Source: Gammaproteobacteria bacterium
GTDB lineage: Bacteria > Pseudomonadota > Gammaproteobacteria > Steroidobacterales > Steroidobacteraceae
Direction of reading: 5' to 3'
DNA length: 64,000 nt
Assembly: GCA_021323735.1 (NCBI GenBank)
Contig: JAJPKM010000021.1
Location: forward strand, 124,001 to 188,000
How positions within the stretch are numbered: position 1 is the stretch's first letter; every line of letters begins with the position of its first letter. A program made the translations under genes and the position numbers. Under the pieces are notes generated by a model. The model worked only from the letters and a program-made list of their open reading frames with translations. It was not told the DNA's origin and made no database searches. Shown here piece after piece: positions 4,571 to 63,905 of this stretch.

Positions 4571-4831
4571 GGGGGCCAGAGCTTAACTAAATCAAAGAGT
4601 TGAGGCTACTAATTAATGTGTGACCCATGGCCCTAGATTCCTGGGTGTAAACTTTGTCGCTGAGGGTCTTGCTCAGGGGTCTGGTTGTCCGCACCGGTTA
4701 TGCAAATTCAGCTACATCCCATGAACTGTTTGCCGTCCGGCGGGCACTCACCATAAAGTCCGTTTATCTGGACGTTCGCTACCGCAAGTGTCGGTGGTTG
4801 GACAATTCATAAGATCATCGAGAGTCATAAT

Positions 4832-5896
4832 TTGCCCGCCGAAGCGTTTGCACATCGCCCGCCCTTGCGGCGGCTGCCACTGGTGACACTATATGTGACC
4901 GACCGGTGCAATTCCCGGTGTGTCACATGCGACTACTGGCGGCACGGGCGGGATGACATGACCCTTGCGGCAGTATCCCGGCTGCTCCCAAGTTTTGTTG
5001 AGCTAAAGACACAAATCGTGCTGCTGTCGGGGGGCGAGCCATTGCTCAATCCTGAATGGGCGGCAATTGCGCAGACGCTGCGCGCAAACGGACTCAAGGT
5101 GTGGCTGCTGACATCCGGACTGGCCTTGGCCAAGCATGCCTCGCGCGCCGTGCAGCTGTTCGATTCCATCACGGTGTCGCTCGATGGAACCGATGCCGCG
5201 ACCTATGCGGCGATTCGCGGTTTGGACGCATTCGACAAGGTATGCGAAGGAATCAGGGCGGCAGCGGCCCTTGGAATCTCGACCGGCATTCGCGTCACTC
5301 TGCAGCGTGCCAACTATCGGCAGCTGCGGCACTTTGTCGACCTAGCGAAAGAACTCGGCGCCCGCAACATTTCATTTCTCGCAGTCGATGTTGCCAATCC
5401 ACATGCATTCGCACGCACGGACGATTTCGTCTCCAATCTCGCCTTGCTTCCGGAGGATTTACCTGGATTCGAGCAAGCCTTGAATTCCATCGAGCAAGAT
5501 CACCGCGAAGACTTTCGATCCGGCTTCATCGCCGAGAGTCCACAAAAGCTGCGACACATCCACCAATACTTCGCCGCCATCTGCCGAAAAGGGCCTTACC
5601 CGCCCGTTCGCTGCAATGCGCCGGAGTTCTCCGCCGTGATCGGCGCGACTGGACGCCTGCAGCCCTGCTTTTTCATTTCCGGGCCGCCCGAAGCAAACGT
5701 GCTCGCAAGCCGCAGCGGACCGGGTGTCGATCTGCCGTTTGCATTGAACGGCACCTCTATGTCAGAACTGCGGGCCCAGATCGACGCCGGCTTGCGCAAG
5801 GAATGTAAGACCTGCGTGTGTTCCATGTGGCGGGATCCGGAACATATCCGCGCTTCAAATCATGCCGCGAAGTTTGCGGCGGAGGCTTCGGCATGA
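4832..5896 (+). CDS. Radical SAM/SPASM-type protein
   Basis: The product is 354 residues. It has the radical SAM cluster motif CNSRCVTC (Cys26, Cys30, Cys33) just after a TLYVTDR strand, then a glycine-rich SAM-binding segment (LLSGGEPLL). C-terminally it has cysteines at CNAPEF and RLQPC, with a final CKTCVCSMW group, a SPASM/twitch-like arrangement that usually binds auxiliary Fe-S clusters. SPASM enzymes modify peptides, sugars or lipids; no precursor peptide is evident nearby, so the substrate is unknown. The TTG at 4832 is taken as start because no ATG precedes the motif region. It is the first gene of a plus-strand operon of five; the next start overlaps its stop. Confidence 0.85.
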   Translation: MPAEAFAHRPPLRRLPLVTLYVTDRCNSRCVTCDYWRHGRDDMTLAAVSRLLPSFVELKTQIVLLSGGEPLLNPEWAAIAQTLRANGLKVWLLTSGLALAKHASRAVQLFDSITVSLDGTDAATYAAIRGLDAFDKVCEGIRAAAALGISTGIRVTLQRANYRQLRHFVDLAKELGARNISFLAVDVANPHAFARTDDFVSNLALLPEDLPGFEQALNSIEQDHREDFRSGFIAESPQKLRHIHQYFAAICRKGPYPPVRCNAPEFSAVIGATGRLQPCFFISGPPEANVLASRSGPGVDLPFALNGTSMSELRAQIDAGLRKECKTCVCSMWRDPEHIRASNHAAKFAAEASA

Positions 5897-7356
5897 CGAT
5901 GCGTTCCACGCTACCTACCGAGCCGGCCCAGTCGCCGCGAAAGCGGCTGAAGATCGTGCTTTACAATCCACAGGCCGTGTTTTTCACCATGCCCCTGGCC
6001 TTACTCGCGATCGGCTCCGAACTCGACCCGAACCTCTACGAAGTGGTCACAATCGACGCGCGCCTGGATCCTGATGCAGAAAAGGCCGTTCTCTCTCATA
6101 TCGGCGACGCATTGTGCCTTGGGATCACCGTACTCACGGGAGCGCCGATTTCAGATGCCTTGCGCATATCGCGTTCGGCCAAGCGAGCGCGGCCCGATCT
6201 GCCTGTCGTTTGGGGTGGCTGGCACCCGTCCATGTTTTCCAAGGAGTGCTTACTCGAGCAGTCGGTCGATGTGACCGTACGCGGCCAAGGAGAAGAGACG
6301 TTTGCCGAGATCGTGGATCGCCTTGCGCACGGCCGCTCTCTGGATGATTGCGCCGGATGCACCGTGAGGTTGAGTGACGGCACCATACAGGAAAATCCAT
6401 CACGGGCATTGGCGCAGGTCGATAATTTTCGAGCCCATGACTATGGCCTGATTCCCGTCGAGCGCTATTTCCAGCTGAAGGGCAAACGGCAGTTGGACTA
6501 CATCTCCTCCCAAGGCTGCAATTTTCGCTGCGCATTCTGTTCCGACCCGTTTGTATACGGGCGAAAGTGGGTCGGTTTGGAACCCGTGCGAATGGCGATG
6601 CGTCTGAAAGAACTTTGGGACAAATATCACTTCGACGACGTGAACTTCCAGGACGAAACTTTTTTCACCAAAGCCGGCCGGGTTGAGGCACTCGCCGACC
6701 GGATCGTTGAATCCGGGATGAAGATCACTTGGGCTGCCACGATGCGCGCCGATCAAGGAATTAGGCTCCCCGACCATGTCTGGGTGCGATGCAAGCAATC
6801 AGGACTACGCAGGCTGCTCGTCGGTGTCGAATCCGGGTCCAACGAGGTGCTGAAACGCATCAAGAAAGACATCAAGATTGAACAGGTGTATGAGACTGCC
6901 GAGAAGATGCTGCGGTTTGGAATCGCCGGACATTTTCCCTTCATTGTCGGATTTCCTGACGAGAGCGACGAGAATGTTCAGGCTACCTTGGACTGCGCCA
7001 AACGCCTGCGCTCCATGAGTCCGGAATTCCTGACGCCGATCTTCTATTTCAAACCCTATCCCGGCAGTGCACTGGTGATCGAGGCCGTGGAGCGTGGCTT
7101 TCGTCTGCCGGAAACACTCGAGGAGTGGGCGAAGTTCGACTACGTCGCCGGCGAGCCGGGTCCTTGGGTATCACCTGAGAAATTCGAGCTGATAGAGCGC
7201 TTCAAATTCTTCCACGAACTAGCCTGGAAAAAGGCGTCCCCGGGCAAGAGGCTGTTACAGCGGCTGGCACGTTATCGATGCAACAAGGACAACTATCGAT
7301 GGCCAGTGGAAATGCTGTTCATGCGCTGGCTGGCGCCTGCACAAACATTGTCATGA
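5893..7356 (+). CDS. B12-binding-type radical SAM protein
   Basis: The 487-residue product has an N-terminal Rossmann-like domain of the cobalamin-binding type (KIVLYNPQAVFF to about residue 170, with VVWGGWHPSM) followed by a radical SAM core with CNFRCAFC (Cys209, Cys213, Cys216). The classic DxHxxG cobalamin motif is absent, as is common in this BchE/HpnJ-like class. Later segments LVGVESGSNEVLKRI and FIVGFPDE are typical of the family. The ATG at 5893 overlaps the preceding stop (ATGA), which favours it over an upstream in-frame codon. The reaction cannot be assigned; methylation, ring closure and oxidative cleavage are all known for relatives. Confidence 0.88.
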   Translation: MTMRSTLPTEPAQSPRKRLKIVLYNPQAVFFTMPLALLAIGSELDPNLYEVVTIDARLDPDAEKAVLSHIGDALCLGITVLTGAPISDALRISRSAKRARPDLPVVWGGWHPSMFSKECLLEQSVDVTVRGQGEETFAEIVDRLAHGRSLDDCAGCTVRLSDGTIQENPSRALAQVDNFRAHDYGLIPVERYFQLKGKRQLDYISSQGCNFRCAFCSDPFVYGRKWVGLEPVRMAMRLKELWDKYHFDDVNFQDETFFTKAGRVEALADRIVESGMKITWAATMRADQGIRLPDHVWVRCKQSGLRRLLVGVESGSNEVLKRIKKDIKIEQVYETAEKMLRFGIAGHFPFIVGFPDESDENVQATLDCAKRLRSMSPEFLTPIFYFKPYPGSALVIEAVERGFRLPETLEEWAKFDYVAGEPGPWVSPEKFELIERFKFFHELAWKKASPGKRLLQRLARYRCNKDNYRWPVEMLFMRWLAPAQTLS

Positions 7357-39668: not shown

Positions 39669-39755
39669 GCCCCGATGGCGAAATTGGTAGACGCAACGGA
39701 CTTAAAATCCGTTGGCCGCAAGGTCATGCCGGTTCGACCCCGGCTCGGGGCACCA
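39669..39755 (+). tRNA. tRNA-Leu (UAA), CCA encoded
   Basis: Acceptor stem GCCCCGA pairs with TCGGGGC; the anticodon loop CTTAAAA gives anticodon TAA; a long variable arm (TGGCCGCAAGGTCA) marks class II; the T-loop reads GGTTCGACCC. CCA at 39753-39755 is encoded. Length 87 bases with CCA. Confidence 0.97.
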
Positions 39756-52101: not shown

Positions 52102-52175
52102 TGGAGGCTAAGGTCGGAATCGAACCGGCGTACACGGCTTTGCAGGCCGCTGCATGACCACTCTGCCACTTAGCC
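52102..52175 (-). tRNA. tRNA-Cys (GCA), CCA encoded
   Basis: On the minus strand the acceptor GGCTAAG pairs with CTTAGCC, followed by T and CCA. Anticodon loop CTGCAAA gives GCA. T-arm GGTTCGATTCC is present. Length 74 bases with CCA. Confidence 0.97.
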
Positions 52176-52227: not shown

Positions 52228-52250
52228 TGGAGCGGGAAACAACACTCAGA
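52228..52250 (-). repeat. 3' remnant of tRNA-Gly, likely att site of an island
   Basis: TGGAGCGGGAAAC here is identical to the 3' end (with CCA) of the intact tRNA-Gly at 63830-63842. Beyond that AxACTC also matches with two or three changes, so about 18 of 21 bases agree. Same orientation as the intact gene, and only about 50 bases from tRNA-Cys. This is the signature left when an element enters the 3' end of a tRNA gene. Confidence 0.7.
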
Positions 52251-52355
52251 CCTTACGAACCGCAAACATCATGCCTTGCGATCCTGAGGCCATTAACTCA
52301 TTGGTTTCCCAGCCAATTTTGAAGTCTAGCAGTTCGCGCCAGGTCGCACAAGAAC

Positions 52356-52378
52356 GGGCCGGCCCGATCGGCCGGCCC
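52356..52378. terminator. GC-rich hairpin downstream of 52496 gene
   Basis: GGGCCGGCC and GGCCGGCCC (9 bp) around CGATC. On the minus strand it follows the stop of the 52496 gene by about 118 bases; the T-rich tail (GTTCTTG) is weak. Confidence 0.4.
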
Positions 52379-52495
52379 ATCCTTGATATGACGTCTTAGA
52401 ACGATGCCTCACGCACGCTGTGGCCGATTTCACGTCGGCAACGTGGCGCGCACGGGATTTCTCGTTCCATGTTGTCTATCGACTCTCCGGCAATG

Positions 52496-54646
52496 CTATC
52501 GGTCGCAATCCCCCGCCTCGCATCGCACGGCGGCGAGCAGATCCTGCGCTTCGTCGATGAGATGCCGTGCATCGTCACTATCGATCGCTTGATCGTCGAA
52601 CGCGGCGGCCTCGAGCATTGCGATCATGCGGCTTGCAATGGCGTTGCGTCGCGCGGTCAGGTCATTGAGGCCGTCGTCGATACCGCCCAGCGTGGTGGCA
52701 TCGCCGGTGAGCGCCCGAGTGGAGATCTTCAGGGATCTTCGGCCAAGCTCGCCGCGCGGTGCATTGATCGCCTTGTAGGCAGCCGCCAGTTTCGACAGCA
52801 ACTCATGGTTTTTGTGCAAAGCATGAGGCAGCGCGTCCTTATCGAGAACCTCGAATAACACACGACCGTCGTGGCTATAGTCGTCGCGCAGACCCGCCAG
52901 CGAAATCATGGTCGGCCTCACATCGGTGTGATCCGAGAACACTTCGCCCGTGCTACCTAAGCGCCGCACGCCCGGGCCTGCCAGCCCCAGCCACGTATGG
53001 GTGATGTCGTTCTGGAAGTCGCCGTGATTCCAATTGAATCCCGGCTGCTGATTGGAACACGCGGCAATGGATGCGCACGGCGCTGCCTTGGCGCTGGCCG
53101 TGATGAAGAAATCATCATTGGCAAAGTAAGTAAAGGTCGGGGTGCGCGCCGGATCCTTGGTCACCATGTGCAGCAGCGACATCTCGGCGCCATCGGCCAT
53201 AGCTTTCATCAGGGGCACGTTGGCGCCCACCACCGAATCGAAGGCCAGCAGCGCCCCCATATTGTGCTCGAGCGCACGCGTCGTGGCGTCTGCCGGACCC
53301 GGATTCCCGGCTACATAGACCGTGGGCGCATCATCGCTATGCACGGCAAAGGACGGCAGCAAGAAAGTCGGGTTCTCCGTCTGCAGCAGCGAGCGGACGT
53401 CGACAGCGACCTCGCCTAAGTTCGTGGTCGCACAGGGAACGAAGTCTCCGTCGCAACCCGCGGGCAAGCGCACATAGGTGCATGGCGTGTGCACACCGTC
53501 GCACCCCGCCGGGGAACCCGCCTGTCCGACGAAGTGATCGTTTTCATCGGCGGTGACGATGAACAGCGTGTTCTCGGTGGTGATACCGTCGGCCGCCAAT
53601 CGAGCGAAGAATTTGCCGAACGCGGCATTGTAGACGGCAAGCTGCTTCACGTAGCCTGCCTCGCCGGGACCAAAGCTGCCCGGGCCCGAGTGATTGTCGT
53701 GCGCGTCGGCGATGTAGGCATAGACCACGGGCACGCCCGCCTCCAGCATGGTCGCAAGGTATCCTAGGGACTGCGAGGCCGTCGGGTCAAAACCCGGAAA
53801 ACCGACATTGCCGTTGCCATCGGTGATCGGGGTTCCATCCAGATCGTTGACTACCGGCTGACCACCGTTGATCTGCGGTGCGACGGCGACGTTGCCGAAC
53901 AGCGCGTTGAAACCCACGTAACCGCCCGGCTCATCGGGCAGAAGGTCAGGCGCTGCGCCTTTGCCGCACAGCCGGCTGTCCTTGGCACAGTGAATCGCGA
54001 TACCCTCGAAGTCGGCGACCGCCTTTTTCGGAGTCGCCTTTGCCTCGGCGGCTTGCGGGGAAGCGGCCCCAAACACATTGGTAATGTCGCTGCCGATGTT
54101 CTCGAACTCGATGTTGGCGGTAGCGAATGCACCGACATCGCAACCTGCGCGAGTAAACGGCACCCAGGGGGCCGGATGCACCTTGCCGCGCTGATCGATC
54201 ATCTGGGGCTGGCCATCCGGGGCGATATCGGTCCAGTAGGCAAAGGAGCTGGAAAAGCCGACAGAGCCGTCCGCGCGGAAGAAGCCGTAGGAATTGGCCA
54301 CCGGCTGGCCATGCTTCTCGGGGTAAACGCCGGTGAGAGTGGTGATGATGTCATCCGCCGTATGCGAAATCAGCGGCGTGTGGTGATTGGTCAGCATGGT
54401 GCCCTGCCCTTCCAGAAGATTCAGAAGGTTGGGCATTTGCTCGAGATCGGAGGGTACGTTGGGGTTATCGCGGCGCAGATGCACATTGTCGAATTGAATC
54501 TGCACGATGTGAGTAATGCCTCCCCCGAGGCGGCAGCTGTCGCCCGTATGCGGCGCATTGGCAGCATGGGCCGGCGCACCGCACATTGCGGCGACGATGA
54601 GCGCGGGTAGAGCACTCGCGCGCAGAGGAATTCCGAGACTTTTCAT
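52496..54646 (-). CDS. Secreted alkaline-phosphatase-superfamily protein
   Basis: From ATG 54646 the product has 716 residues with a clear signal peptide (MKSLGIPLRASALPALIVAA, cut after APAHA). Marks of the alkaline phosphatase/sulfatase fold are QIQFDNVH at the first strand, NHHTPLISHTADDIITTLTG (nucleophile threonine or serine region), YAYIADAHDNH and VTADENDHF (metal aspartate and histidine sets), and a late FSDHTDVRPTM. It is a periplasmic or secreted hydrolase or transferase of phosphate or sulfate esters; the substrate is unknown. The gene lies at one edge of the putative island. Confidence 0.78.
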   Translation of the reverse strand: MKSLGIPLRASALPALIVAAMCGAPAHAANAPHTGDSCRLGGGITHIVQIQFDNVHLRRDNPNVPSDLEQMPNLLNLLEGQGTMLTNHHTPLISHTADDIITTLTGVYPEKHGQPVANSYGFFRADGSVGFSSSFAYWTDIAPDGQPQMIDQRGKVHPAPWVPFTRAGCDVGAFATANIEFENIGSDITNVFGAASPQAAEAKATPKKAVADFEGIAIHCAKDSRLCGKGAAPDLLPDEPGGYVGFNALFGNVAVAPQINGGQPVVNDLDGTPITDGNGNVGFPGFDPTASQSLGYLATMLEAGVPVVYAYIADAHDNHSGPGSFGPGEAGYVKQLAVYNAAFGKFFARLAADGITTENTLFIVTADENDHFVGQAGSPAGCDGVHTPCTYVRLPAGCDGDFVPCATTNLGEVAVDVRSLLQTENPTFLLPSFAVHSDDAPTVYVAGNPGPADATTRALEHNMGALLAFDSVVGANVPLMKAMADGAEMSLLHMVTKDPARTPTFTYFANDDFFITASAKAAPCASIAACSNQQPGFNWNHGDFQNDITHTWLGLAGPGVRRLGSTGEVFSDHTDVRPTMISLAGLRDDYSHDGRVLFEVLDKDALPHALHKNHELLSKLAAAYKAINAPRGELGRRSLKISTRALTGDATTLGGIDDGLNDLTARRNAIASRMIAMLEAAAFDDQAIDSDDARHLIDEAQDLLAAVRCEAGDCDR

Positions 54647-55027
54647 GGTTGTTGCCCCCAAAGTTATTTGCTTGAATCGCATTTGCCGAAACGGCTGGGG
54701 GACTGTGCGCCGATCGCGCTACACGACTATGTCACTGTGATTGCAGAACCATTTCTCGCTCAGAGGCGAGTCGTGGCAACACCGTCATATATCTGGTTGT
54801 GCAAACTCAGCTTGCCGTTGAATTATTTACAAGGGAGAGAGATCCATGAAACCGGCAACTTCGTCGATGTCAAGCCGGTGCACAACGATAGGAACGTGCA
54901 AGCGTACGGTCCACCTCCGATGCCGTGTTTGCGGAGGATGTTGATCTTTGAGAATTTACAGTTGTACTTCGCAATATCACAACACTGTACTATCATAAAA
55001 TACAAATGAAGTAGAACAGTTCGGGGC
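54647..55027. other. AT-richer intergenic region
   Basis: No gene recognised in these 381 bases. The part from about 54770 to 55015 is clearly richer in A and T than the surrounding genes. It carries the start region of the 52496-54646 gene and then runs into a duplicated gene fragment at 55028. Confidence 0.4.
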
Positions 55028-55168
55028 AAGGACGCGAAGCAAGGCGCGCTGCTGTTGAGTACGATAGCGGAGCGCATGCCACACTTTCCGCTCGACGATG
55101 CAATTCGCGATGAACTACCCTCCGAGTTGAGCCTCACTTTCGATCGGTGGCGCAAGGAAAAGTATTAA
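55028..55168 (+). pseudogene. Broken 3' copy of the GSU2403-type gene
   Basis: Forty-six residues from KDAKQGALLLS to FDRWRKEKY match the C-terminus of the product of 56653-57651 at 38 of 46 positions, ending at an equivalent stop (47 codons in both). Similarity continues a few tens of bases beyond the stop. The 5' nine-tenths of this copy is absent. Confidence 0.8.
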
Positions 55169-55247
55169 GAATGGTTGCCAGCGACAGCCTTGCCGAGTTC
55201 TTGCACGAGGTGGGCCTATAAACAAGTCCTCGCGATCCGCGGATTCA

Positions 55248-56354
55248 GTGCATGCCTATCGTGGAAAGCGTTCGCAGCGCCGCGCGGCCGATGAATGGAC
55301 GGTGCGCGAGCTCTCTCTGATCGAACAACACTACGGCCGCACGCCACGCAAGGAACTGGTTGTGCGCTACCTGCCGAACCGCACCATCAAGGCCATCGAG
55401 TATCGCGCGCGCCTGCTCGGCGTTTGCCGCAAGAGAAAACCCGTCACCTATTGGACGTCGGCCGAGGTTGCGGTGCTGCGGCGGCATTTCGGCACAATGC
55501 CACGCAAGGAGCTGATTGCGCGCTACCTGCCTCATCGCTCGATCAAACAGATCGATTTTAAGGCGGGCCAGCTGGCCTTACGCCGCCGCCGGCCTGCCGT
55601 CAAGTCGTGGAGCACGGAGGACCTGGCGCTGTTGCGCCGGCACTATGGAACGATGCCGAATGCCGCGTTGCGAGCCCGCTATTTCCCGCGTATCAGCATC
55701 CCAGCGATCCGTCATCGGGCGGTGCGGCTGGGCTTGCGCAGCAAAGAGCCGAATTGGACGGCGGCGGAAGACCGTTTGATAAAACGACACTATGGACAAA
55801 TGTCCAATCCGGCGTTGGTCGCACGTCATCTGCCGGGTCGCTCGCCCGAGGCCGTGCAGAGCCGCGCCCGTAAGTTCGGGCTCACGCAAGGGGTGCATGA
55901 CGTGTGGAGTGCAAGGGAGCTACGCCTGCTGAAGAAGCACTACCCCACGCATACCCTGCCTGAGATGGCGCGGTACTTGCCGAATCGCACGTTGTTCGCG
56001 ATCCGCTCGCGGATACTGATCGAAGGGCTGCGGAAGGCGCAGCGACACCTTGTATGGACCGCGCCCGAACATAAGCTGATTCGCCGCCACTATGAAGCGA
56101 AGAACGGCCTGCAACGGCTGGTGCGCGAACTCGTCGGTCGCACCCGGCTGGCCATCCAGCAGCAGGCCCGCAAACTGCACTTGTCGCGAGCCGGTAATCC
56201 GTGGACGGCGCAGGACGATGCGCTGTTGCGGCGACTTTATCCGCGCGACGGGCTCAAGACCCACATTCCCGGCCACACGCAGGGCTCGATGCGCGTGCAC
56301 GCGCAGAAGCTTGGCTTGCGAATAAGGCCACGCAAAGCGCGTAAGTCCCGCTAA
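55248..56354 (+). CDS. Protein of seven tandem Myb/SANT-like repeats
   Basis: The 368-residue, strongly basic protein starts at a GTG. It consists of seven repeats of about 50 residues, beginning with a tryptophan at about residues 17, 69, 121, 170, 220, 270 and 319. Pattern: W-T/S-x2-E/D-x2-L-L/I-x2-H/R-Y-G, about 10 residues, L/R-Y-L-P-x-R-S/T-x2-A-I-x3-A-x2-L-G-L. This resembles Myb/SANT three-helix domains. DNA binding is likely. The function is unknown; such a long array is rare in bacteria to my knowledge. Confidence 0.8.
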   Translation: MHAYRGKRSQRRAADEWTVRELSLIEQHYGRTPRKELVVRYLPNRTIKAIEYRARLLGVCRKRKPVTYWTSAEVAVLRRHFGTMPRKELIARYLPHRSIKQIDFKAGQLALRRRRPAVKSWSTEDLALLRRHYGTMPNAALRARYFPRISIPAIRHRAVRLGLRSKEPNWTAAEDRLIKRHYGQMSNPALVARHLPGRSPEAVQSRARKFGLTQGVHDVWSARELRLLKKHYPTHTLPEMARYLPNRTLFAIRSRILIEGLRKAQRHLVWTAPEHKLIRRHYEAKNGLQRLVRELVGRTRLAIQQQARKLHLSRAGNPWTAQDDALLRRLYPRDGLKTHIPGHTQGSMRVHAQKLGLRIRPRKARKSR

Positions 56355-56606
56355 GCACTTCGGCATGCCCAGCCGGTCCACGCATACCGTCTCACTGATC
56401 GATTCAGACGGCAGCAGGCTCATCCCGCAGTCTGCGGACACGTCAGTTTCACCAGCTAATTACAGTCTTTTGACATTGCCGGTCACCGGGGCCTCAAATC
56501 CGACGACACTGGTTTCCTATACCGACGCAACCTCTACATAGTCCAAGACCCGACCGATACAATTCGGATTGTCGTCGTCGAACTACTTAATTATTTGATT
56601 TTACAT

Positions 56607-56650
56607 GAATTATCCTTTATAAATTCATAATTCTAAATAAAGGATAATTC
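56607..56650. promoter_or_regulatory. Perfect 14-bp inverted repeat, likely operator
   Basis: GAATTATCCTTTAT (56607-56620) and ATAAAGGATAATTC (56637-56650) are exact reverse complements with a 16-base AT-rich spacer. The right arm ends two bases before the TTG start of the gene at 56653, and the AGGATAA of the right arm may serve as its ribosome site. A dimeric regulator, or RNA folding that hides the start, could act here. Confidence 0.6.
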
Positions 56651-56652
56651 TC

Positions 56653-57651
56653 TTGATATCAAATAGTTACGAGATTGACGACGAATCTCTGCGATTGCAG
56701 GCCAATCTCGAACAGCACTACGCAGCGTGGATCGATGCCGAACGCATTTTGCTACCAGGCCGGCTTGCCTGGAAAACGGTGGCGGGTCGGGACTATTTGT
56801 ACCGTCTTACCAATGGCCGCGGTCACGGCCGCTCTCTAGGCCCTCGCTCGCCGAAAACGGAAGCTCAGTATGAAGCCGCGCAGATGGCACGCCAAAGCAC
56901 GGAAACGCTCTGGCCGCTCCTGCGCCGCGAGGGAGCGATGTATCGCACCCTCCGCCTGCCGCGTATTTCTTCCGCAGCGGCCGATCTCCTGCGAGAATTC
57001 GATCGGCATGAATTGCTCGGCAGCAGCCTGGTAGTCGTCGGTACCAACGCGATGGCCGTCTACGAAATTGAAGCGCGCCTACGCTTTGCGACAGCGGCCG
57101 GCGTGGACGGCACATTGGATTTCGACATGACCTGGGTTGCCTCAGAAGCCAGGCAAACCACACTTGCCGCGGTAGGCGCCGCACCTCGCACGCTCTTGGA
57201 TGTCATGAAGCGCGTGGATCTGACTTACACAGTCAACACGGAGCGCAGCTTTCAAGCGCGCAACTCGAGTGGATATGAAGTGGAGCTTCTGCTGCCGCTG
57301 AGCCTCGCAGGAGCTTTGCCACGCAACGAAACCCTGTTTCCCATTGCGCTGCCCGAGCAGGACTGGCTGCTACCAGGAAGAAGAGTGGAGCACGTCGTGT
57401 GCGGTCTTGACGGATTGCCCTCGCGAGTGATCGCGCCGGATCCACGACGCTTCGCGCTGCAAAAATTGTGGCTGGCGGAAAAGCCCTCGCGCAATCCATT
57501 GAAGAAGACCAAGGACGCGAAACAAGGCGCGCTGCTGTTGAGTGCGATAGACGAGCGCATGCCACACTTTCCTCTCGACGATGCATTTCGCGACGAACTA
57601 CCCTCCGAGTTGACGCCTTACTTCGATCGGTGGCGCAGGGAAAAGGATTAG
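56653..57651 (+). CDS. GSU2403-type nucleotidyltransferase-fold protein
   Basis: The 332-residue protein has VVGTNAMAVYEIEARLRF followed about 25 residues later by GTLDFDMTW, the glycine plus D-x-D pattern of nucleotidyltransferase folds, in the family I know as GSU2403. The AT-rich leader with the inverted repeat and a TTG start with AAGGATAATTC before it support the start. Reaction unknown; the fold is used by toxin and tRNA-modifying enzymes. The C-terminal part exists as a second broken copy at 55028. Confidence 0.7.
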   Translation: MISNSYEIDDESLRLQANLEQHYAAWIDAERILLPGRLAWKTVAGRDYLYRLTNGRGHGRSLGPRSPKTEAQYEAAQMARQSTETLWPLLRREGAMYRTLRLPRISSAAADLLREFDRHELLGSSLVVVGTNAMAVYEIEARLRFATAAGVDGTLDFDMTWVASEARQTTLAAVGAAPRTLLDVMKRVDLTYTVNTERSFQARNSSGYEVELLLPLSLAGALPRNETLFPIALPEQDWLLPGRRVEHVVCGLDGLPSRVIAPDPRRFALQKLWLAEKPSRNPLKKTKDAKQGALLLSAIDERMPHFPLDDAFRDELPSELTPYFDRWRREKD

Positions 57652-57767
57652 GAATGGTTTGCCGGCCACGGCTTTCCCTAGTTCGCCAGGGCGCCGGCAA
57701 GCGTGGTCATTCCCCCTGTCAGCTTGAGGTATTCCTTGATGTTCGAACAAACCTACCGCATGGCGGG

Positions 57768-59201
57768 CTATGCTGCGATCACGCGGTTGCGGCCTTGGTG
57801 TTTAGCCTTGTACAGGCGTTCATCGGCTACTCGCAGAATGTCATCGATAGTGTCGCCGTCGCTGCCGGACTGCGCTATCCCGATGCTCACCGTAACTCCG
57901 GTCAACCGCTGCACGCCGCTCTGAAACGAAGCGCTTGCAACTGCGATTCGCAGGCGCTCTGCGACGACAAGTGCGGCTTCGAGTACGGTTTGAGGGATCA
58001 GTACCATGAACTCCTCCCCGCCCACACGAGCGACGCCATCATACGGCCTGATCTCAGAGATGCATGTCTGCACGAACTCCCTTAGGACGTCATCACCTAC
58101 CCGGTGTCCGTAGCGGTCGTTGACAGATTTGAAATGGTCCAGATCGAGTGCCAGCACGCAGAACGGTGCACCGCCGCGCCCGACGCGCTGAAACTCCATT
58201 TCGACGTGCTCGATGAACCGGCGTCGATTGTCCGCGCCCGTCAGCGGATCGGTCGCAGCCAGAATCTCGAGCGTTTCGTTGGTGCGCCGGAGTTCCCCAA
58301 GTACCGTCTCGGTACGGGCCCTCGCCTCGGCAAGTCGCGCCATCATCTCCTCTTGGCTATAGATCGTCGAGAACGAGCGCGTCGTCAGGAACGCCCGCAC
58401 CACGCCGAAGCTCAAGAGGAAGAATCCGGCGGCGAAGATCGCATGAGCGAGCCACCACATATGATTCCACGGTTTCGCGAGCACGAACGCGAGAGACGAC
58501 AACGCGAACGCCGTAACCGAGATGGTGAAAATCACCATCAGCGGGGAACGGATACGACGCAGCAGAATCAGCGTTACGTTGACCGAGGAAAGTACGAGAG
58601 CCCCGCCTTCCATCGAGAGACGCACCGCAGGGTTGCCCGCGATGGGCGAATTCGCGAGGTACGCCACGGCCAGGTCGGCAACCAGGAACAGACCTATCCA
58701 CGTCAACCACGGGCGGAGCTTCACGCGCCGGACCACCGCATCGGGCGGCCGGTAGAACGACAGCAGCGAGATGAACAGCAGGATCGCCATCACCAGCCGT
58801 GAGGCCGGCCCATAAAACAAAAAGAGCCAGATGTTCCGGTGCGCCAGCCCGGTGAACGCGCCGTGCAGCGCATAGATCAGCGTAAAGCCGAGAAAACTGA
58901 GCGTCATCCATCGCAACAAAGGCTCCCCGGATGACCTGTAGCAACACCACGTCACATAGCAAACAAAAAGGCCTTCCAGCGTGGCGACCGCGATCGCAAT
59001 GACATGGAACGCATGGTTCTCGAATTTGAGGGAGGGATCCTGGAAGAAGAACATGTAGCCGATCAGAGCGGCAGGAATCAGTGCGGCGCCTGCAAGGAGC
59101 AATCGTGCATAAGTCTCGATCACGAAAGTGATTGCGAGCCCTTCGAACTTGGTCACGAGGGGGACTGGCTGCAGCGGGTCGGCTACCAGCACAGCGCTCA
59201 T
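57768..59201 (-). CDS. Membrane-bound diguanylate cyclase (GGDEF)
   Basis: The 477-residue protein has about eight helices in residues 25-275, a coiled linker, then a GGDEF domain starting at ATDPLTGADNRRRF (about 316). The active site reads RVGGEEF and the inhibitory I-site RPYD lies five residues before it, so it should both make c-di-GMP and be feedback inhibited. No EAL domain is attached. Confidence 0.9.
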   Translation of the reverse strand: MSAVLVADPLQPVPLVTKFEGLAITFVIETYARLLLAGAALIPAALIGYMFFFQDPSLKFENHAFHVIAIAVATLEGLFVCYVTWCCYRSSGEPLLRWMTLSFLGFTLIYALHGAFTGLAHRNIWLFLFYGPASRLVMAILLFISLLSFYRPPDAVVRRVKLRPWLTWIGLFLVADLAVAYLANSPIAGNPAVRLSMEGGALVLSSVNVTLILLRRIRSPLMVIFTISVTAFALSSLAFVLAKPWNHMWWLAHAIFAAGFFLLSFGVVRAFLTTRSFSTIYSQEEMMARLAEARARTETVLGELRRTNETLEILAATDPLTGADNRRRFIEHVEMEFQRVGRGGAPFCVLALDLDHFKSVNDRYGHRVGDDVLREFVQTCISEIRPYDGVARVGGEEFMVLIPQTVLEAALVVAERLRIAVASASFQSGVQRLTGVTVSIGIAQSGSDGDTIDDILRVADERLYKAKHQGRNRVIAA

Positions 59202-59506
59202 GTGCGAGAGCCTCCCAGAGCGGTCGCCGCTACCGCCGCCAAGTCGGCGTCGGCTTCGTGGTCACGGCCGAACCCACGGAGCGTGCGCTGCGCAACGAAG
59301 CGCAGCGGCCACAGGTTGCGCTGCGGGCATCGAAGTTGGGTTTGCGCAGTCGGTCTGTTGGTCGATGGTAGCACCCTGAACAGGGTAGCCGCAGCGCAGC
59401 CGCCGGTCGGTGCGCCAGCGAACATGGGACGACCTAGTGCACCAAATCATAAGACGAAGTGTTGAGCGCTCACATTAGACCGGCAAGATCGAATCAAGCG
59501 TCCAAA
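59202..59506. other. Intergenic region, no gene
   Basis: 305 bases upstream of the GGDEF gene and downstream of the PAS-GGDEF-EAL gene, both on the minus strand. Several open frames occur but none resembles a protein; no clear terminator or promoter was seen. Confidence 0.4.
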
Positions 59507-62254
59507 CTAAAGGCCGTGATATGCAACAGCGGGTGCGGCCACGCCCGACAGGTCCGGGACAATGACTCCGACGCGCAGCAGCGTCGTCATCGCGGCAACC
59601 CGCAGAGGCTCCGAGAAGTAGAAGCCCTGGATCAGCCTGCCGCCCCAGGATTTGATGAGCGCGAGTTCCTCGGCGGTCTCCACGCCCTCCACGACGACAT
59701 GCAGAGCGAGGTCGTGCGCCAGATGGATGGCCGCTCTCACGATCGCCGCATTGCGCGGGTTCGTCGGCAGACCGAGAATGAAATTTTGGGCGATCTTGAT
59801 GTGGTCGACCGGGAAATGGCTGAGATATTCGAGCGACGAATACCCGTTTCCGAAGTCATCGATCGCGAGCTTGATGCCGCTGTCGCGCAGCCGGAGCAAG
59901 ATGTCATGGTGGGCCCGGTTCACTTCCATGAGCACGCTCTCCGTAAGTTCCAGCTCCAGCATCTGCGGCGGCAAGCCGGTTTTGGCCAGGACCGCCGCAA
60001 TGTCGTTCTCGAGTTCGAGCGGCGTCTTGAACTGGAGCCCGGAAAGGTTCACCGACATGAGCGCCGGCGCTATACCCGCATCGAGCCATAATTTCATCTG
60101 GCGACACGCCTCGCCCAAGACCCAATGCCCGAGTGCCACGATCAGGCCGCTATGCTCGGCCACTGGAATGAACTCGCCGGGCGAGACCAGCCCGCGCTTG
60201 GGATGATGCCAGCGGGCCAGCGCCTCGAGAGCGACGATGCGGCCGGTTCCGATGTCGACTTGCGGCTGGTATACGAGATAGAGCTGGCCCGCGGTGATCG
60301 CCGCGCGAAGCTCCGCCGCAAGGGCGACCCTATTGCGGACCTCCGCGTCCATGGCCTCGGTGAAAAAGCGGTAGGTGCCCCGCCCATCCTGCTTCGCTCG
60401 GTATAGAGCCACATCGGCACGCGACAGTAACGTTTCGGCATCGGGCGAATCCGGCCCGAACACCGCGATTCCGACGCTGGCTCCGGGCCGAACTACCTTT
60501 CCACCGATTGAGAATGGTCCACTGACGGCATTCAACAGCTTGTTGGCGAGCACAACGGCGGTCTCGGGGTCCCCGGTGCCGACCTCAATGACGGCAAACT
60601 CGTCGCCACCGAACCGCGCCACCGTGTCCGTCTCGCGCACGGCTGCCCGGAGGCTCTGCGCCACAGCCTGAAGCAGCAGATCGCCGATCGGATGGCCAAG
60701 CGTGTCGTTGACGTCCTTGAAGTGATCCAAATCCAGATACAGCACGGCGAAGCTGCTTTCGCCCTGGCGCGCGCGGGCGATCGATTGCTCGAGCGCCTCG
60801 ACAAAGACACCGCGGTTCGTCAAGCCGGTCAGCACGTCAAACCGGGCCATGCGCATGATGCGCTCTTCCGCGCACTTGCGCTCCGTGACATCGTGAAAAC
60901 AGCCGACCATATACATTCGCCCGGCAAGAATCATGGTCTGCCCGGTGATATCGGCGAAGAACACCGAGCCGTCCTTTCGTTTTACCGGAAAGTCGGCAGA
61001 TACCTTTATCTTGCCTTGCGAAAAGCTTGCGAAGTCTTCGCGGGCTCGCGCATGCGTCTCCGTCGGATGAATGTCCGGAACACTGAGCGCCGGCACCTCC
61101 TCGACACCATAGCCAAGCATGTCGCAAAACGCCCGGTTCGCGAACTGGAACTTCTTCGTCTCCGCATCCACCACCACGATGCCATCGCCATTGGTCTCCA
61201 GAACGGCCCGCAGCCGGATCTCCGAGTCCGCCAGTCCCCGTTCCGCCTTTTTCCTGTCGGTGACGTCGCGGACGAAGCAGAGGAACTGTGCCGCGCTCCG
61301 CCACAGCGAGATGCTGACTTCGGCCTCGAAGACGCTGCCGTCCTTCCGGCGCTGGCGGGTCTCGAAGCGATCGAAACCGGCAGCCACGACCTTCGCCAGA
61401 TGGTCGGCCGCCGCCACGGGCGATTCGATGGCATCGATATCCGTGACATGCAAAGTCAGAAGTTCGTTGCGGGAATAGCCCGTCATGCGGCAATAAATGT
61501 CGTTCACCTCGACGAACCTGCCATTCGTGTCCAGAATCCAAAATCCGTCTGCCGTCGTCGACAACATCGTCGCGTACTGGTCCGCCTGCCGCCGGATGGT
61601 CTCCTCGTCATGCTTGCGCTCGTCGATATCCCGCCCGGTGGCGAGGACAAGATCGCGCGAGCCGAACGTCGTGGAGCGGATGGAAAGCTCCACCCAGAAA
61701 TGCCGCCCACCCTTATCCTTCGCCTGCCACTCAAAGGTTTGCGGTCCGTTCGCTTGCGCGCGCCTGAGCGCCTCGCTCACCGCTTCGGGGGTGTAGGGAT
61801 ACACCTCCGACGACAGCGACGAGATTTTTCGGCCGATGATTTCCTCCCGCAGATAACCGAACATCGCGCAGCCACGCGGGTTGGCATCCACGAATTGGTC
61901 CGTCGCGGGATCCACGAGAAAGATCCCTTCATTCACGGCGTCATAAATCGTGCGGAACCGCTGCTCGCTCTCTTGCAGTGCTGTTTTGGTCTCTGCGGCA
62001 GCGCGGTCGTATGCCCTGCGACGCGCCGATGCATAAAGATACAACCCCGCCAAGGCGGTCATGAGAAAGCCCACCAGCAGCGCCCCCCAAGCGTTTGCCG
62101 GCACCGCTCCAGGGTGGGCTCCCGCAAGGGATACTGACGCGGTGGTCCAGGCTTGACCGGAGGACGTCACAGTCCGCGTGAAGAGCAGGCCGATCCCGAT
62201 GACCGCGGCAACCGGCCAATAGCGTCTCGCGCCTGCGCTATCTAACACTTTCAT
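59507..62254 (-). CDS. PAS-GGDEF-EAL sensory c-di-GMP protein
   Basis: The 915-residue protein has two N-terminal membrane segments (about residues 12-30 and 52-75), three PAS domains (about 93-210, 222-340, 345-465), a GGDEF domain with RFGGDEF (about 560) and an EAL domain with ALEALARW, DDFGNGYSSLEYL and VVEGVET. The catalytic residues of both domains look intact, so the balance between synthesis and breakdown of c-di-GMP cannot be told. Signals sensed by the PAS domains are unknown. Confidence 0.92.
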   Translation of the reverse strand: MKVLDSAGARRYWPVAAVIGIGLLFTRTVTSSGQAWTTASVSLAGAHPGAVPANAWGALLVGFLMTALAGLYLYASARRRAYDRAAAETKTALQESEQRFRTIYDAVNEGIFLVDPATDQFVDANPRGCAMFGYLREEIIGRKISSLSSEVYPYTPEAVSEALRRAQANGPQTFEWQAKDKGGRHFWVELSIRSTTFGSRDLVLATGRDIDERKHDEETIRRQADQYATMLSTTADGFWILDTNGRFVEVNDIYCRMTGYSRNELLTLHVTDIDAIESPVAAADHLAKVVAAGFDRFETRQRRKDGSVFEAEVSISLWRSAAQFLCFVRDVTDRKKAERGLADSEIRLRAVLETNGDGIVVVDAETKKFQFANRAFCDMLGYGVEEVPALSVPDIHPTETHARAREDFASFSQGKIKVSADFPVKRKDGSVFFADITGQTMILAGRMYMVGCFHDVTERKCAEERIMRMARFDVLTGLTNRGVFVEALEQSIARARQGESSFAVLYLDLDHFKDVNDTLGHPIGDLLLQAVAQSLRAAVRETDTVARFGGDEFAVIEVGTGDPETAVVLANKLLNAVSGPFSIGGKVVRPGASVGIAVFGPDSPDAETLLSRADVALYRAKQDGRGTYRFFTEAMDAEVRNRVALAAELRAAITAGQLYLVYQPQVDIGTGRIVALEALARWHHPKRGLVSPGEFIPVAEHSGLIVALGHWVLGEACRQMKLWLDAGIAPALMSVNLSGLQFKTPLELENDIAAVLAKTGLPPQMLELELTESVLMEVNRAHHDILLRLRDSGIKLAIDDFGNGYSSLEYLSHFPVDHIKIAQNFILGLPTNPRNAAIVRAAIHLAHDLALHVVVEGVETAEELALIKSWGGRLIQGFYFSEPLRVAAMTTLLRVGVIVPDLSGVAAPAVAYHGL

Positions 62255-62529
62255 CTATACGATCATCCGGTGGAGTGATGATGAAGTGCAGTGCAGCACA
62301 TCCTAATCCCACACCCCTGCCCTGGCCGCCGTACAAGCGTCTTGCCGAATTGACGCACGGATTCGCCGACCCTGGCTCGTCGTAATCGCCTACCCAACCG
62401 CTGGAGCAAACACGACAATTAGTTGCGTGTCAACCATGGTCCTGGGGATGGCCCGCAGCAATCGATTCACCCCATACGATTGTCTGGCCTATAAGCGTTG
62501 CCAGCACCGCGATGCCCTAGATTCCCTAC

Positions 62530-63024
62530 CTATTTTCGTTTAGCGAATCTATTTCGCCAATTCTCCCGCGCTTGGCGACGTACTTCCTCAAGATCGAATT
62601 TCGAGGGCTGCTGCACTCGCATACGTTTCCATACTTCCCTGGCTCTTAGCTGGATTTCCGCGAGTCCCATTGTTCGTTTCGAACCAACGCCATGAGGTGG
62701 TTTCGCCGACCGATTGCTTTCGGAGTCGACCGACGCCGCAAATTTTCTGACCGGTAGCGGTGGTGCCGGATACCTGCCCATCTTGGAATTCCAGTAAGCC
62801 CAAGATCGAGGATCGATGATGCCGGGAGGAGCCTTATCGAGCGCTTCACGAATATCGTCATCGGTCACATGGCGGCGTATCAGCTGCATATCTTCGTGAC
62901 GAGCGTAAGTCATGGCATAAGCCATGAAACGAATCGGCTCGGCGAGCGCTTGCTCCGGCGGTTCAAACCAAATGATCCGCCGCGCTATCTCGCGAGTTAG
63001 CGCCGTCAGCGGGATGGCGTTCAT
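62530..63024 (-). CDS. Partner protein of AbiEii-type nucleotidyltransferase
   Basis: The 164-residue protein has no recognised domain. Segments: an N-terminal helical part (ALTREIARRIIWFEP, AYAMTYARHEDMQ, DDDIREALDKAPPG) and a basic C-terminus (RQARENWRNRFAKR). Its ATG overlaps the stop of the upstream nucleotidyltransferase gene (ATGA), so the two are translated together. It is not an AbiEi-type antitoxin in sequence or order, so it may be a different kind of antitoxin or an accessory protein. Confidence 0.6.
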   Translation of the reverse strand: MNAIPLTALTREIARRIIWFEPPEQALAEPIRFMAYAMTYARHEDMQLIRRHVTDDDIREALDKAPPGIIDPRSWAYWNSKMGRYPAPPLPVRKFAASVDSESNRSAKPPHGVGSKRTMGLAEIQLRAREVWKRMRVQQPSKFDLEEVRRQARENWRNRFAKRK

Positions 63025-63707
63025 ATTTCCTGCTCGTAGTCGTCATCGGACCTGGAGGAGTTGCGATCCAGAGGCGGCAAATGATCCAAGTCCACTTGCC
63101 TTACGGTATCAACCAAGCGCTGCTTTAGGTCTTTCGGCAAGTCTTGCAAATTCCCGTCATCGAAAAAGGATAAGGCCTTCAGCGTGACCTCGGGATTGAA
63201 GCTGGGACCGTACAGCATTTGCGCCGCGGACAGGGCAGTAGGCAGATCGATCTTGCCGGAAGTTAGGAGCGCGTCCATATCCACGTAATCCTTGGCTTCG
63301 GCGCGAACCTGAATCACAGATGCTTTGGCGCCAGCCAGATCGAGCAACGAGGCAATTTTCAAATCGTTCTCTTTCACCACATGAGGCTGTGCCAACCTTG
63401 GCAATTTCGGCACGCCAAAAAAGGAAACCTTTACAGGCTCGCCTCGGTCCACTATCGCAGTCAGCGTGTTCTTTTCGCGCTGAATTGTTTTTGCGTCTCT
63501 CAGGAAGGGAATGCTGCCCTCCAGAGCTTCCAGATTTAGCGGCCGGTTGCAAAAAAAATCAAAATCAACTGACGTCCGATGCCCGAGGTGCAGAGCAATG
63601 GCAGTTCCACCATACAGAACAAATTCATCGGGCACCGCCGACAATTCGCGCCAAAGACGCAGTTGTGCTGCGGGAAGAATGTCCGTGCGCGGAGAAAACT
63701 CCTTCAT
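63021..63707 (-). CDS. AbiEii/AbiGii-type nucleotidyltransferase
   Basis: The 228-residue protein has FVLYGGTAIALHLGHRTSVDFDFF (about residues 30-53) with the GG-T and D-x-D motif of the AbiEii toxin family, plus KENDLKIASLLDLAGAKASV, the following family segment. AbiEii-like enzymes are the toxin of abortive-infection toxin-antitoxin pairs. The gene starts about 120 bases from tRNA-Gly and is the first of a two-gene operon, at the tRNA-proximal end of the putative island, a usual place for defence or stability genes. Confidence 0.82.
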   Translation of the reverse strand: MKEFSPRTDILPAAQLRLWRELSAVPDEFVLYGGTAIALHLGHRTSVDFDFFCNRPLNLEALEGSIPFLRDAKTIQREKNTLTAIVDRGEPVKVSFFGVPKLPRLAQPHVVKENDLKIASLLDLAGAKASVIQVRAEAKDYVDMDALLTSGKIDLPTALSAAQMLYGPSFNPEVTLKALSFFDDGNLQDLPKDLKQRLVDTVRQVDLDHLPPLDRNSSRSDDDYEQEI

Positions 63708-63829
63708 CTAAGGGAGTTTAAAGGCACGGCCGCGCGCGCGGAAGGCTGATCTTGCCGATCAGTTGCTTGCGCCTCCCCCGATAGGATTAACCGGAGGGAA
63801 TGCCGCCTGGGAGCGCGCTGTGAAAATTT

Positions 63830-63905
<76 letters not shown>

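Follow-up and report, generated by a model that had tools for sequence, protein, structure and literature searches.

Gene and island

The window (the whole 64,000-nucleotide stretch of DNA analysed here) carries a gene for a protein of seven Myb-type units, located on an island between a tRNA-Gly(GCC) and a tRNA-Cys(GCA) gene. The features are listed in Table 1. The coordinates and reading frame proposed for this gene in an earlier note on the DNA were correct. By eye, no clear ribosome-binding site was seen at its start, and its codon-position G+C (66/49/75%) resembles that of the neighbouring genes.

Table 1. Features of the tRNA-Gly island and of the multi-Myb gene (window coordinates)
Feature	Position	Strand	Remarks
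tRNA-Cys(GCA) gene	52102–52175	−	
Island, 11.6 kb, between tRNA-Gly(GCC) and tRNA-Cys(GCA)	52228–63849		From DNA comparison and relatives' tRNA spacing
Left attachment-like repeat	52228–52247	+	tRNA-Gly 3′-end remnant adjoining tRNA-Cys; 18/20 bases
Phosphodiest-like gene	52496–54682	−	Just under Pfam cut-off
Broken NTP_transf_8 (GSU2403-type) copy	55027–55176	+	3′ end only, last ~46 codons; repeat of 57510–57659
Seven-unit Myb-type protein gene	55248–56354	+	368 aa, GTG start, TAA stop
Myb-type unit 1	55296–55436	+	Residues 17–63; 50.1 bits; helices 19–28, 34–41, 47–57
Myb-type unit 2	55452–55589	+	Residues 69–114; 48.7 bits; three predicted helices
Myb-type unit 3	55608–55745	+	Residues 121–166; 45.3 bits; three predicted helices
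Myb-type unit 4	55755–55889	+	Residues 170–214; 48.8 bits; best-scoring PF00249 stretch
Myb-type unit 5	55905–56036	+	Residues 220–263; 39.7 bits; three predicted helices
Myb-type unit 6, degenerate	56055–56192	+	Residues 270–315; 22.2 bits; three predicted helices
Myb-type unit 7, degenerate	56202–56321	+	Residues 319–358; 10.6 bits; two predicted helices
Intact NTP_transf_8 (PF12281) nucleotidyltransferase-fold gene	56653–57651	+	PF12281 E 3.1e-35
GGDEF gene	57768–59201	−	
PAS-GGDEF-EAL gene	59507–62254	−	
Gene without Pfam match, 164 aa	62530–63024	−	No PADLOC match either
AbiEii-like nucleotidyltransferase gene	63021–63707	−	PF08843 3.5e-16
Right attachment-like repeat	63830–63849	+	3′ end of intact tRNA-Gly gene; 20 bases
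Intact tRNA-Gly(GCC) gene	63830–63905	−	

The suspicion of an island in the earlier note was supported, and its ends could now be placed at a tRNA-Gly integration site. The two tRNA genes, which are separated by 11.65 kb in the window, are spaced by 49–53 bp in the relatives G021, G008, G013 and G007, and the window DNA beside tRNA-Cys is much like that of the relatives up to the 3′ end of tRNA-Gly. These relatives come from a scan of 14 loci for the tRNA pair, eight of which had no tRNA in view and two tRNA-Cys alone, one of the latter being from G020. A third copy of the 20-base attachment-like repeat was not found in the window at up to 3 mismatches (0.01 expected). Judging by these comparisons, integration at the 3′ end of tRNA-Gly left the 20-bp repeat as its footprint. 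Pfam recognised no integrase among the seven main island ORFs. In G020 (L035) the Gly and Cys tRNAs are 1.8 kb apart, possibly a second insertion at the same site. A Gly-Cys-Leu tRNA cluster that is together in L024 and L032 is split in the window, where tRNA-Leu (39669–39755) lies 12 kb from tRNA-Cys on the opposite strand.

As had been noted before, the Myb gene stands between a broken and an intact copy of the GSU2403-type gene. The broken copy is one arm of a 150-nt direct repeat, 89% identical without gaps and 91% with gaps, whose two arms flank the Myb gene together with most of the intact copy, as after a tandem duplication followed by partial loss. At the start of the intact copy, a 33-nt imperfect inverted repeat (56588–56669, 82%, arms AATTATCCTTTAT and ATAAAGGATAATT) is a possible operator. 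The AbiEii-like gene and its 164-aa partner form a two-gene unit on the reverse strand, possibly a toxin–antitoxin-like pair.

The repeat units

The protein is strongly basic, as described earlier, with 16.8% Arg, a calculated charge of about +60 and a pI of 11.8. The charge is spread along its length, each of the seven units having a net charge of +4 to +9. Pfam matched Myb_DNA-binding (PF00249; E 3.2e-15, 56.4 bits, above the curated cut-off of 24.4) and also Myb_DNA-bind_6 (E 7.8e-08). The single NCBIfam match, VapB, was far under its cut-off (21 versus 60 bits). With PHROGs, the protein matched phrog_323, a D5-like transcriptional regulator family (E 1.6e-34), and residues 219–286, corresponding to units 5–6, matched the HNH endonuclease family phrog_1891 (1.3e-09). 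HNH homing endonucleases with repeat domains have a catalytic HNH; neither this nor another catalytic domain was found in the window protein by Pfam or NCBIfam, and no enzymatic or secretion domain was recognised by Pfam, NCBIfam or PHROGs. The GcrA family (PF07750) gave no Pfam match, and PADLOC, searched for a defence role, gave none at E 0.01. The best sequence match in the PDB was c-Myb (E 0.006).

The units were counted with a repeat profile for which nine relatives supplied 48 repeat segments, the window protein being excluded; the segments were cut automatically, and a few of them overlap or are misframed. This independent profile found exactly seven domains, five of them at 40–50 bits and units 6 and 7 weaker, in agreement with the seven regular Myb-like repeats of the earlier note. 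Each unit is headed by a tryptophan, at a spacing of 49–52 residues. When the window protein was shuffled 200 times, the profile gave 283 domain hits, the best of them at 14.8 bits. Units 1–6 are thus beyond chance. Unit 7 lies below this best shuffle score and so is not significant by itself; it is assigned by its tryptophan, its register and the helices predicted for it. Compared pairwise, the seven units are on average 36% identical, as against 22% (largest 28.7%) in 20 shuffled sets.

The conservation within the units is looser than had been claimed. The earlier note placed an L-P-x-R-S/T-x2-A-I helix in every unit, whereas the exact motif occurs in units 1 and 5 alone (2/7). In the alignment, units 2, 3, 4 and 6 each show one or two departures from it, and unit 7 (I-P-G-H-T-Q-G-S-M) shows four. 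A canonical Myb repeat has three regularly spaced tryptophans, of which all seven window units keep the first alone.

The base-contacting K-N pair in the recognition helix of c-Myb aligns with repeat columns 33–34, and column 34 is, tied with column 30 (2.52 bits), the most variable of the 43 columns among the seven window units. In four relatives of one chromosomal family (the G675 family, below), identity between units at the same position was 63%, compared with 28% between different positions, so on this alignment the units of these four proteins are seen to keep separate identities. The window units could not be paired one-to-one with those of relatives, their nearest neighbours (40–49% identity) being scattered. 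Conservation by unit position is compatible with a possible modular reading of a long DNA site, and is not proof of it. The earlier note also allowed for an RNA site; no sign of RNA binding turned up in the analysis.

Predicted fold and comparison with known proteins

An AlphaFold2 model of the window protein, made from six sequences (the window protein and five from genome searches), had a mean pLDDT of 77.5 and a pTM of 0.28. Three helices were predicted in each of units 1–6 (block pLDDT about 77–94) and two, at lower confidence, in unit 7. The low pTM would fit beads on a string, the relative placement of the units not being predicted by the model. The units thus came out helical, and not as the non-helical fold that the earlier note had set as the contrary outcome.

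In Foldseek, the model gave 46 PDB matches at a limit of E 10, of which none fell below 0.001; those at the top were mainly DNA complexes of the Myb family. Ranked highest were SNAPc (E 0.038) and c-Myb–DNA complexes (0.10 and 0.33), and the top matches also included Reb1–DNA and Trichomonas Myb2/Myb3–DNA; the c-Myb (1h88/1h89) and Trichomonas complexes had probabilities of 0.97–0.98, all being weak in E. The plant single Myb units 7fdo and 7fdl superposed at 1.1–1.6 Å, but at E 3.3–9.2. Against viral models there were 211 matches, three of them below 0.001 (two unnamed and one phage DNA mismatch endonuclease), followed by a Pithovirus Myb-like protein (0.0015); the Vibrio phage D5 protein A0A6M9Z6H9 was also matched (E 0.029). 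The proposal of Myb/SANT-like helical units is therefore supported by Pfam and the AlphaFold model, and weakly by Foldseek.

Eukaryotic Myb proteins, including c-Myb R2R3, share the predicted fold and the W...LPGRT...AI core with the window protein. They have two or three units with three tryptophans, whereas the window protein has seven units with the first tryptophan only. GcrA has a similar helix-turn-helix unit (7ye1, E 8.8 in Foldseek with the window model). The phrog_323 match raised the possibility that the protein belongs with D5, but this was dropped after direct comparison with T5 D5, which did not align with the window protein (BLASTP E 9.8), reached 8.2 bits against the repeat profile, less than the best domain from the shuffles, and lacks an LPxR motif.

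Distribution of relatives

In a protein search (E up to 1e-5) the gene was present in 1 of 60 related genomes, its own counted, and so in none of the 59 others; in 1 of 296 genomes of the order (its own); and in 2 of 369 of the class, again with its own. The phrog_323 profile matched 3 of 274 class genomes, own included, and two archaeal control genomes. The G675 family, of the same class as the window, matched in 6 of 151 genomes at eight places; the G756 copy is a remnant only, and in that of G793 an in-frame stop occurs close to the end. Among 72,556 plasmid records there were 27 matches: 20 from sphingomonads and other alphaproteobacteria, five enterobacterial and two from Aeromonas. Plasmid searches seeded with two relatives added mainly the same genera. 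Scans of genome-contig and viral-contig collections gave no confirmed relative, and E. coli genomes had no blastn match to the Scandinavium gene. Phage kinship was considered and set aside: the only matching phage record, MT836346.1 (L006), labelled Bacteriophage sp., is probably plasmid sequence, its protein sharing 98% identity over 287 residues with a multi-Myb protein from a Sphingomonas plasmid.

The homologue search and repeat count suggested in the earlier note thus returned relatives, the closest at about 30% identity and mostly with 4–5 units rather than seven; 3 to 7 units were seen across the group. Like the window protein, those of Scandinavium (WP_125354384.1; 32% identity in alignment, BLASTP E 1e-32, five units), Enterobacter (QMM55225.1; 31%, five units) and Citrobacter (WP_087784738.1; 29%, four units) consist entirely of Myb repeats and match the same profile. 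These three differ from it in lying in type VI secretion clusters, where they are annotated as hypothetical; indeed, all nine annotated plasmid relatives are called 'hypothetical protein'. Since the nine profile relatives are also made of such units, the all-repeat form looks old and stable, as far as can be told from their sequences.

Relatives at type VI secretion and vgrG loci

The closest relatives were at type VI secretion or vgrG genes in 11 of the 14 loci read, or 11 of 15 with the window locus. This count omits the alphaproteobacterial plasmid loci as well as two loci of the window's class, in G491 (L036) and G358 (L037), which were found by the phrog_323 profile and not by the window protein. 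As a rough guide, if 4.8 Mb are taken to hold five such loci, a randomly placed gene has a 1.5% chance of falling within 7 kb of one. The window protein shares the LPxR-type tandem units of this group, but not its type VI/vgrG location.

On enterobacterial plasmids, all five loci read were at type VI genes. In L002 the Myb gene comes after tssF/G/J/E and an ImpA_N gene, from which an IS separates it; it directly follows a VasL gene in L003, and follows one in L038, where no other tss gene is in view. In L039 and L040 it is divergent from tssB; these two are near-identical, with 361 bases across the Myb–tssB gap identical in both. On the one Aeromonas plasmid read of the two (L007), no type VI genes were in view.

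In the G675 family, six of the eight loci were at vgrG, VgrG being assigned by Pfam in L053 and L055 and by similarity elsewhere. The Myb gene is divergent from vgrG in L030 and L050, as is the remnant in L056. In L055 it shares the strand of vgrG and lies just ahead of it. In L053 it is found 4.5 kb downstream of vgrG, likewise on the same strand, beyond a DUF4123 gene and two Pfam-less genes, and in L054 about 6 kb downstream; the last two loci are 92–96% identical where aligned and so not independent. No vgrG was seen at L051 and L052, two G705 copies which lie 4.2 and 5.4 kb from contig starts. Divergent placement beside the controlled operon is a usual position for a regulator. The Myb gene is optional at one of these places: it lies between TauE and vgrG in L050, while the syntenic L083 has 203 bp there. 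At another vgrG locus it is intact in L030 and a remnant in L056.

At the level of whole genomes, TssC was present in 6 of 6 Myb-positive and 70 of 145 Myb-negative genomes (one-sided Fisher p 0.015), but we do not rely on this link, which is weak, and the genomes are related. TssC is absent from the window's own genome (G000, an assembly 95.9% complete) and VgrG from all 23 genomes of the genus, own included. A type VI role therefore cannot apply in the window host. Among the matches listed from open PMC, none was a publication on bacterial Myb-repeat proteins or on Myb at type VI loci.

Search for a binding site

Arrays of TGTAAG-N6-CTTACA-like palindromes, with a period of 20–22 bp, lie between vgrG and the Myb gene in G675, G793 and G756. 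The exact pattern occurred at 7, 6 and 6 sites in G675, G756 and G793 (0 in the reversed control), and at 1–3 sites in six further genomes, four of which had 1–2 in the control. Palindromes were found ahead of vgrG, in the interval from tssB to hcp and close to DUF4123 and PAAR genes, and also away from type VI genes, for example on the 3′ side of what we read as an enolase-like gene. Loci with palindromes, several of them in arrays, were L030, L056, L076, L077, L078, L082, L083, L086, L089 and L092 (G675, G756, G793 and G705).

These palindromes were considered as a Myb operator and rejected. The exact pattern was present in 76 of 151 genomes and the Myb gene in only six, one a remnant. It lies about 1 kb from TssC in three Myb-positive genomes (G675, G756 and G793), and also 1.1–2.6 kb from TssC in at least seven Myb-negative ones (G695, G701, G761, G781, G792, G804 and G817); these at least ten genomes were picked by eye among the matches listed, and the distances were computed. 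Because of the Myb-negative genomes, TGTAAG-N6-CTTACA is probably the site of another regulator. The motif resembles the TyrR box, and it may be a type VI operator of the G675 family that is independent of the Myb gene. None of the listed half-site words occurred within 9 kb of the window gene. Searching 54683–55300 for repeats of at least 20 nt (seed 11) gave none, and so no candidate binding site there, and a promoter scan of 54600–57800 was at chance level (2 found, 1.6 expected).

Proposed function

We propose that the window protein is a modular double-stranded DNA-binding protein acting as a local regulator, a repressor or silencer, carried as mobile cargo; we give this reading a probability of about 0.5. 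It would consist of seven small helix-turn-helix units of Myb/SANT type with no other recognised domain. Such a protein would run along the DNA double helix and place several units in the major groove, the short linkers letting the tandem basic units follow the DNA, and would hold a long site through many weak contacts. Since no catalytic domain was recognised, the simplest role would be occupancy, that is, repression, silencing or architecture, and the targets would be genes on the carrying element. DNA binding itself is likely, a regulatory role has roughly even odds, and the binding may be sequence-specific. The kin would be the 4–5-unit proteins of enterobacterial plasmids and of one chromosomal family of the window's class, where they would be optional type VI/vgrG cargo. 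The window gene would have arrived on the tRNA-Gly island and, since the host genome yielded no core gene of type VI secretion, would now regulate island or host genes, or drift.

The position of relatives beside tssB and vgrG, together with their optional presence, favours a local regulator carried as cargo. A rival reading is effector or immunity cargo of vgrG loci, a protein that shields DNA from an injected nuclease, for instance, and is not a regulator. Optional presence at vgrG suits such cargo, as does the one-strand array of L053, in which vgrG is followed by a DUF4123 adaptor gene, the two Pfam-less genes and the Myb gene last. We regard it as quite improbable: the protein has no recognised enzymatic or secretion domain, on two plasmids the Myb gene adjoins the structural gene tssB and not an effector gene, and the window host lacks TssC and VgrG. 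That the gene is what is left of a degenerated homing endonuclease gene, or of another phage gene, after the catalytic domain was lost and only the DNA-reading repeats were kept, is suggested by the HNH-family match to units 5–6 and by two phage endonucleases within the ten best viral fold matches. It appears very improbable given the missing HNH or other catalytic domain, the nine profile relatives that are likewise all-repeat, and codon-position G+C like that of neighbouring genes.

The main rival, in view of the basic charge of each unit and of the D5-like profile, is a DNA coater. This would be a nucleoid-type or architectural protein whose basic units, with little sequence preference, compact or silence foreign DNA in the manner of phage T5 D5. 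The T5 record has D5 as a DNA-binding protein needed for DNA replication and late transcription. The best PHROG match is to the D5-like family, a phage D5 protein is among the viral fold matches, the total charge is spread over all units, and the units vary at the recognition column. On the other hand, T5 D5 itself is not alignable with the window protein and scores below the best shuffle with the repeat profile, and the conservation of unit position between relatives argues for specificity. We consider a coater rather improbable, and prefer the local regulator.

A more far-reaching version of the regulator reading, which we put forward as speculative and on balance unlikely, is that these proteins form an undescribed bacterial multi-Myb family. 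Each unit would read its own subsite, and the number of repeats (3 to 7) and the recognition helices would set a long, programmable DNA address. The relatives would control type VI/vgrG cargo islands on enterobacterial plasmids and related chromosomes, and the window protein would be their seven-unit representative, caught on a tRNA island of a host that lacks the system. Tandem Myb units are typical of eukaryotes, and bacterial proteins built of Myb units alone are little annotated. While Myb units and phage multi-helix-turn-helix proteins are already known, an all-Myb bacterial family of 3–7 units at type VI loci is apparently undescribed, as far as the matches from open PMC go. If each unit does read its own bases, the family would provide a natural modular scaffold for reading DNA, of 3–7 units. 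The repeated occurrence next to tssB and vgrG suggests that type VI secretion loci have a player which has yet to be named.

Other multi-Myb loci

The sphingomonad plasmid proteins (L004 Sphingobium, L005 Sphingomonas, L008 Novosphingobium) are 403–410 aa long and form a row of Myb/GcrA-like units, with 7–8 profile hits each, several of them weak. With the repeat profile none of their units exceeds 25 bits, compared with 40–50 bits for window units 1–5, and these proteins give sub-cut-off matches to GcrA PF07750, which the window protein does not. At three of four sphingomonad loci (L004, L005 and L008, not L041) the Myb gene directly follows a gene for a DUF87/HerA-like ATPase. In L004 (4706–9104) and L005 (4697–8897) the ATPase gene overlaps the multi-Myb gene, which is followed by a gene for an ATP-binding protein; the L004 ATPase matches PADLOC mad8 (1.9e-14), and the L004 ATP-binding protein has a weak HATPase match under the cut-off. 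L036 encodes on its reverse strand (4667–5938) a protein with GcrA/Myb-like repeats (phrog_323 E 1.7e-21), whose gene, by eye, adjoins a relaxase-like gene.
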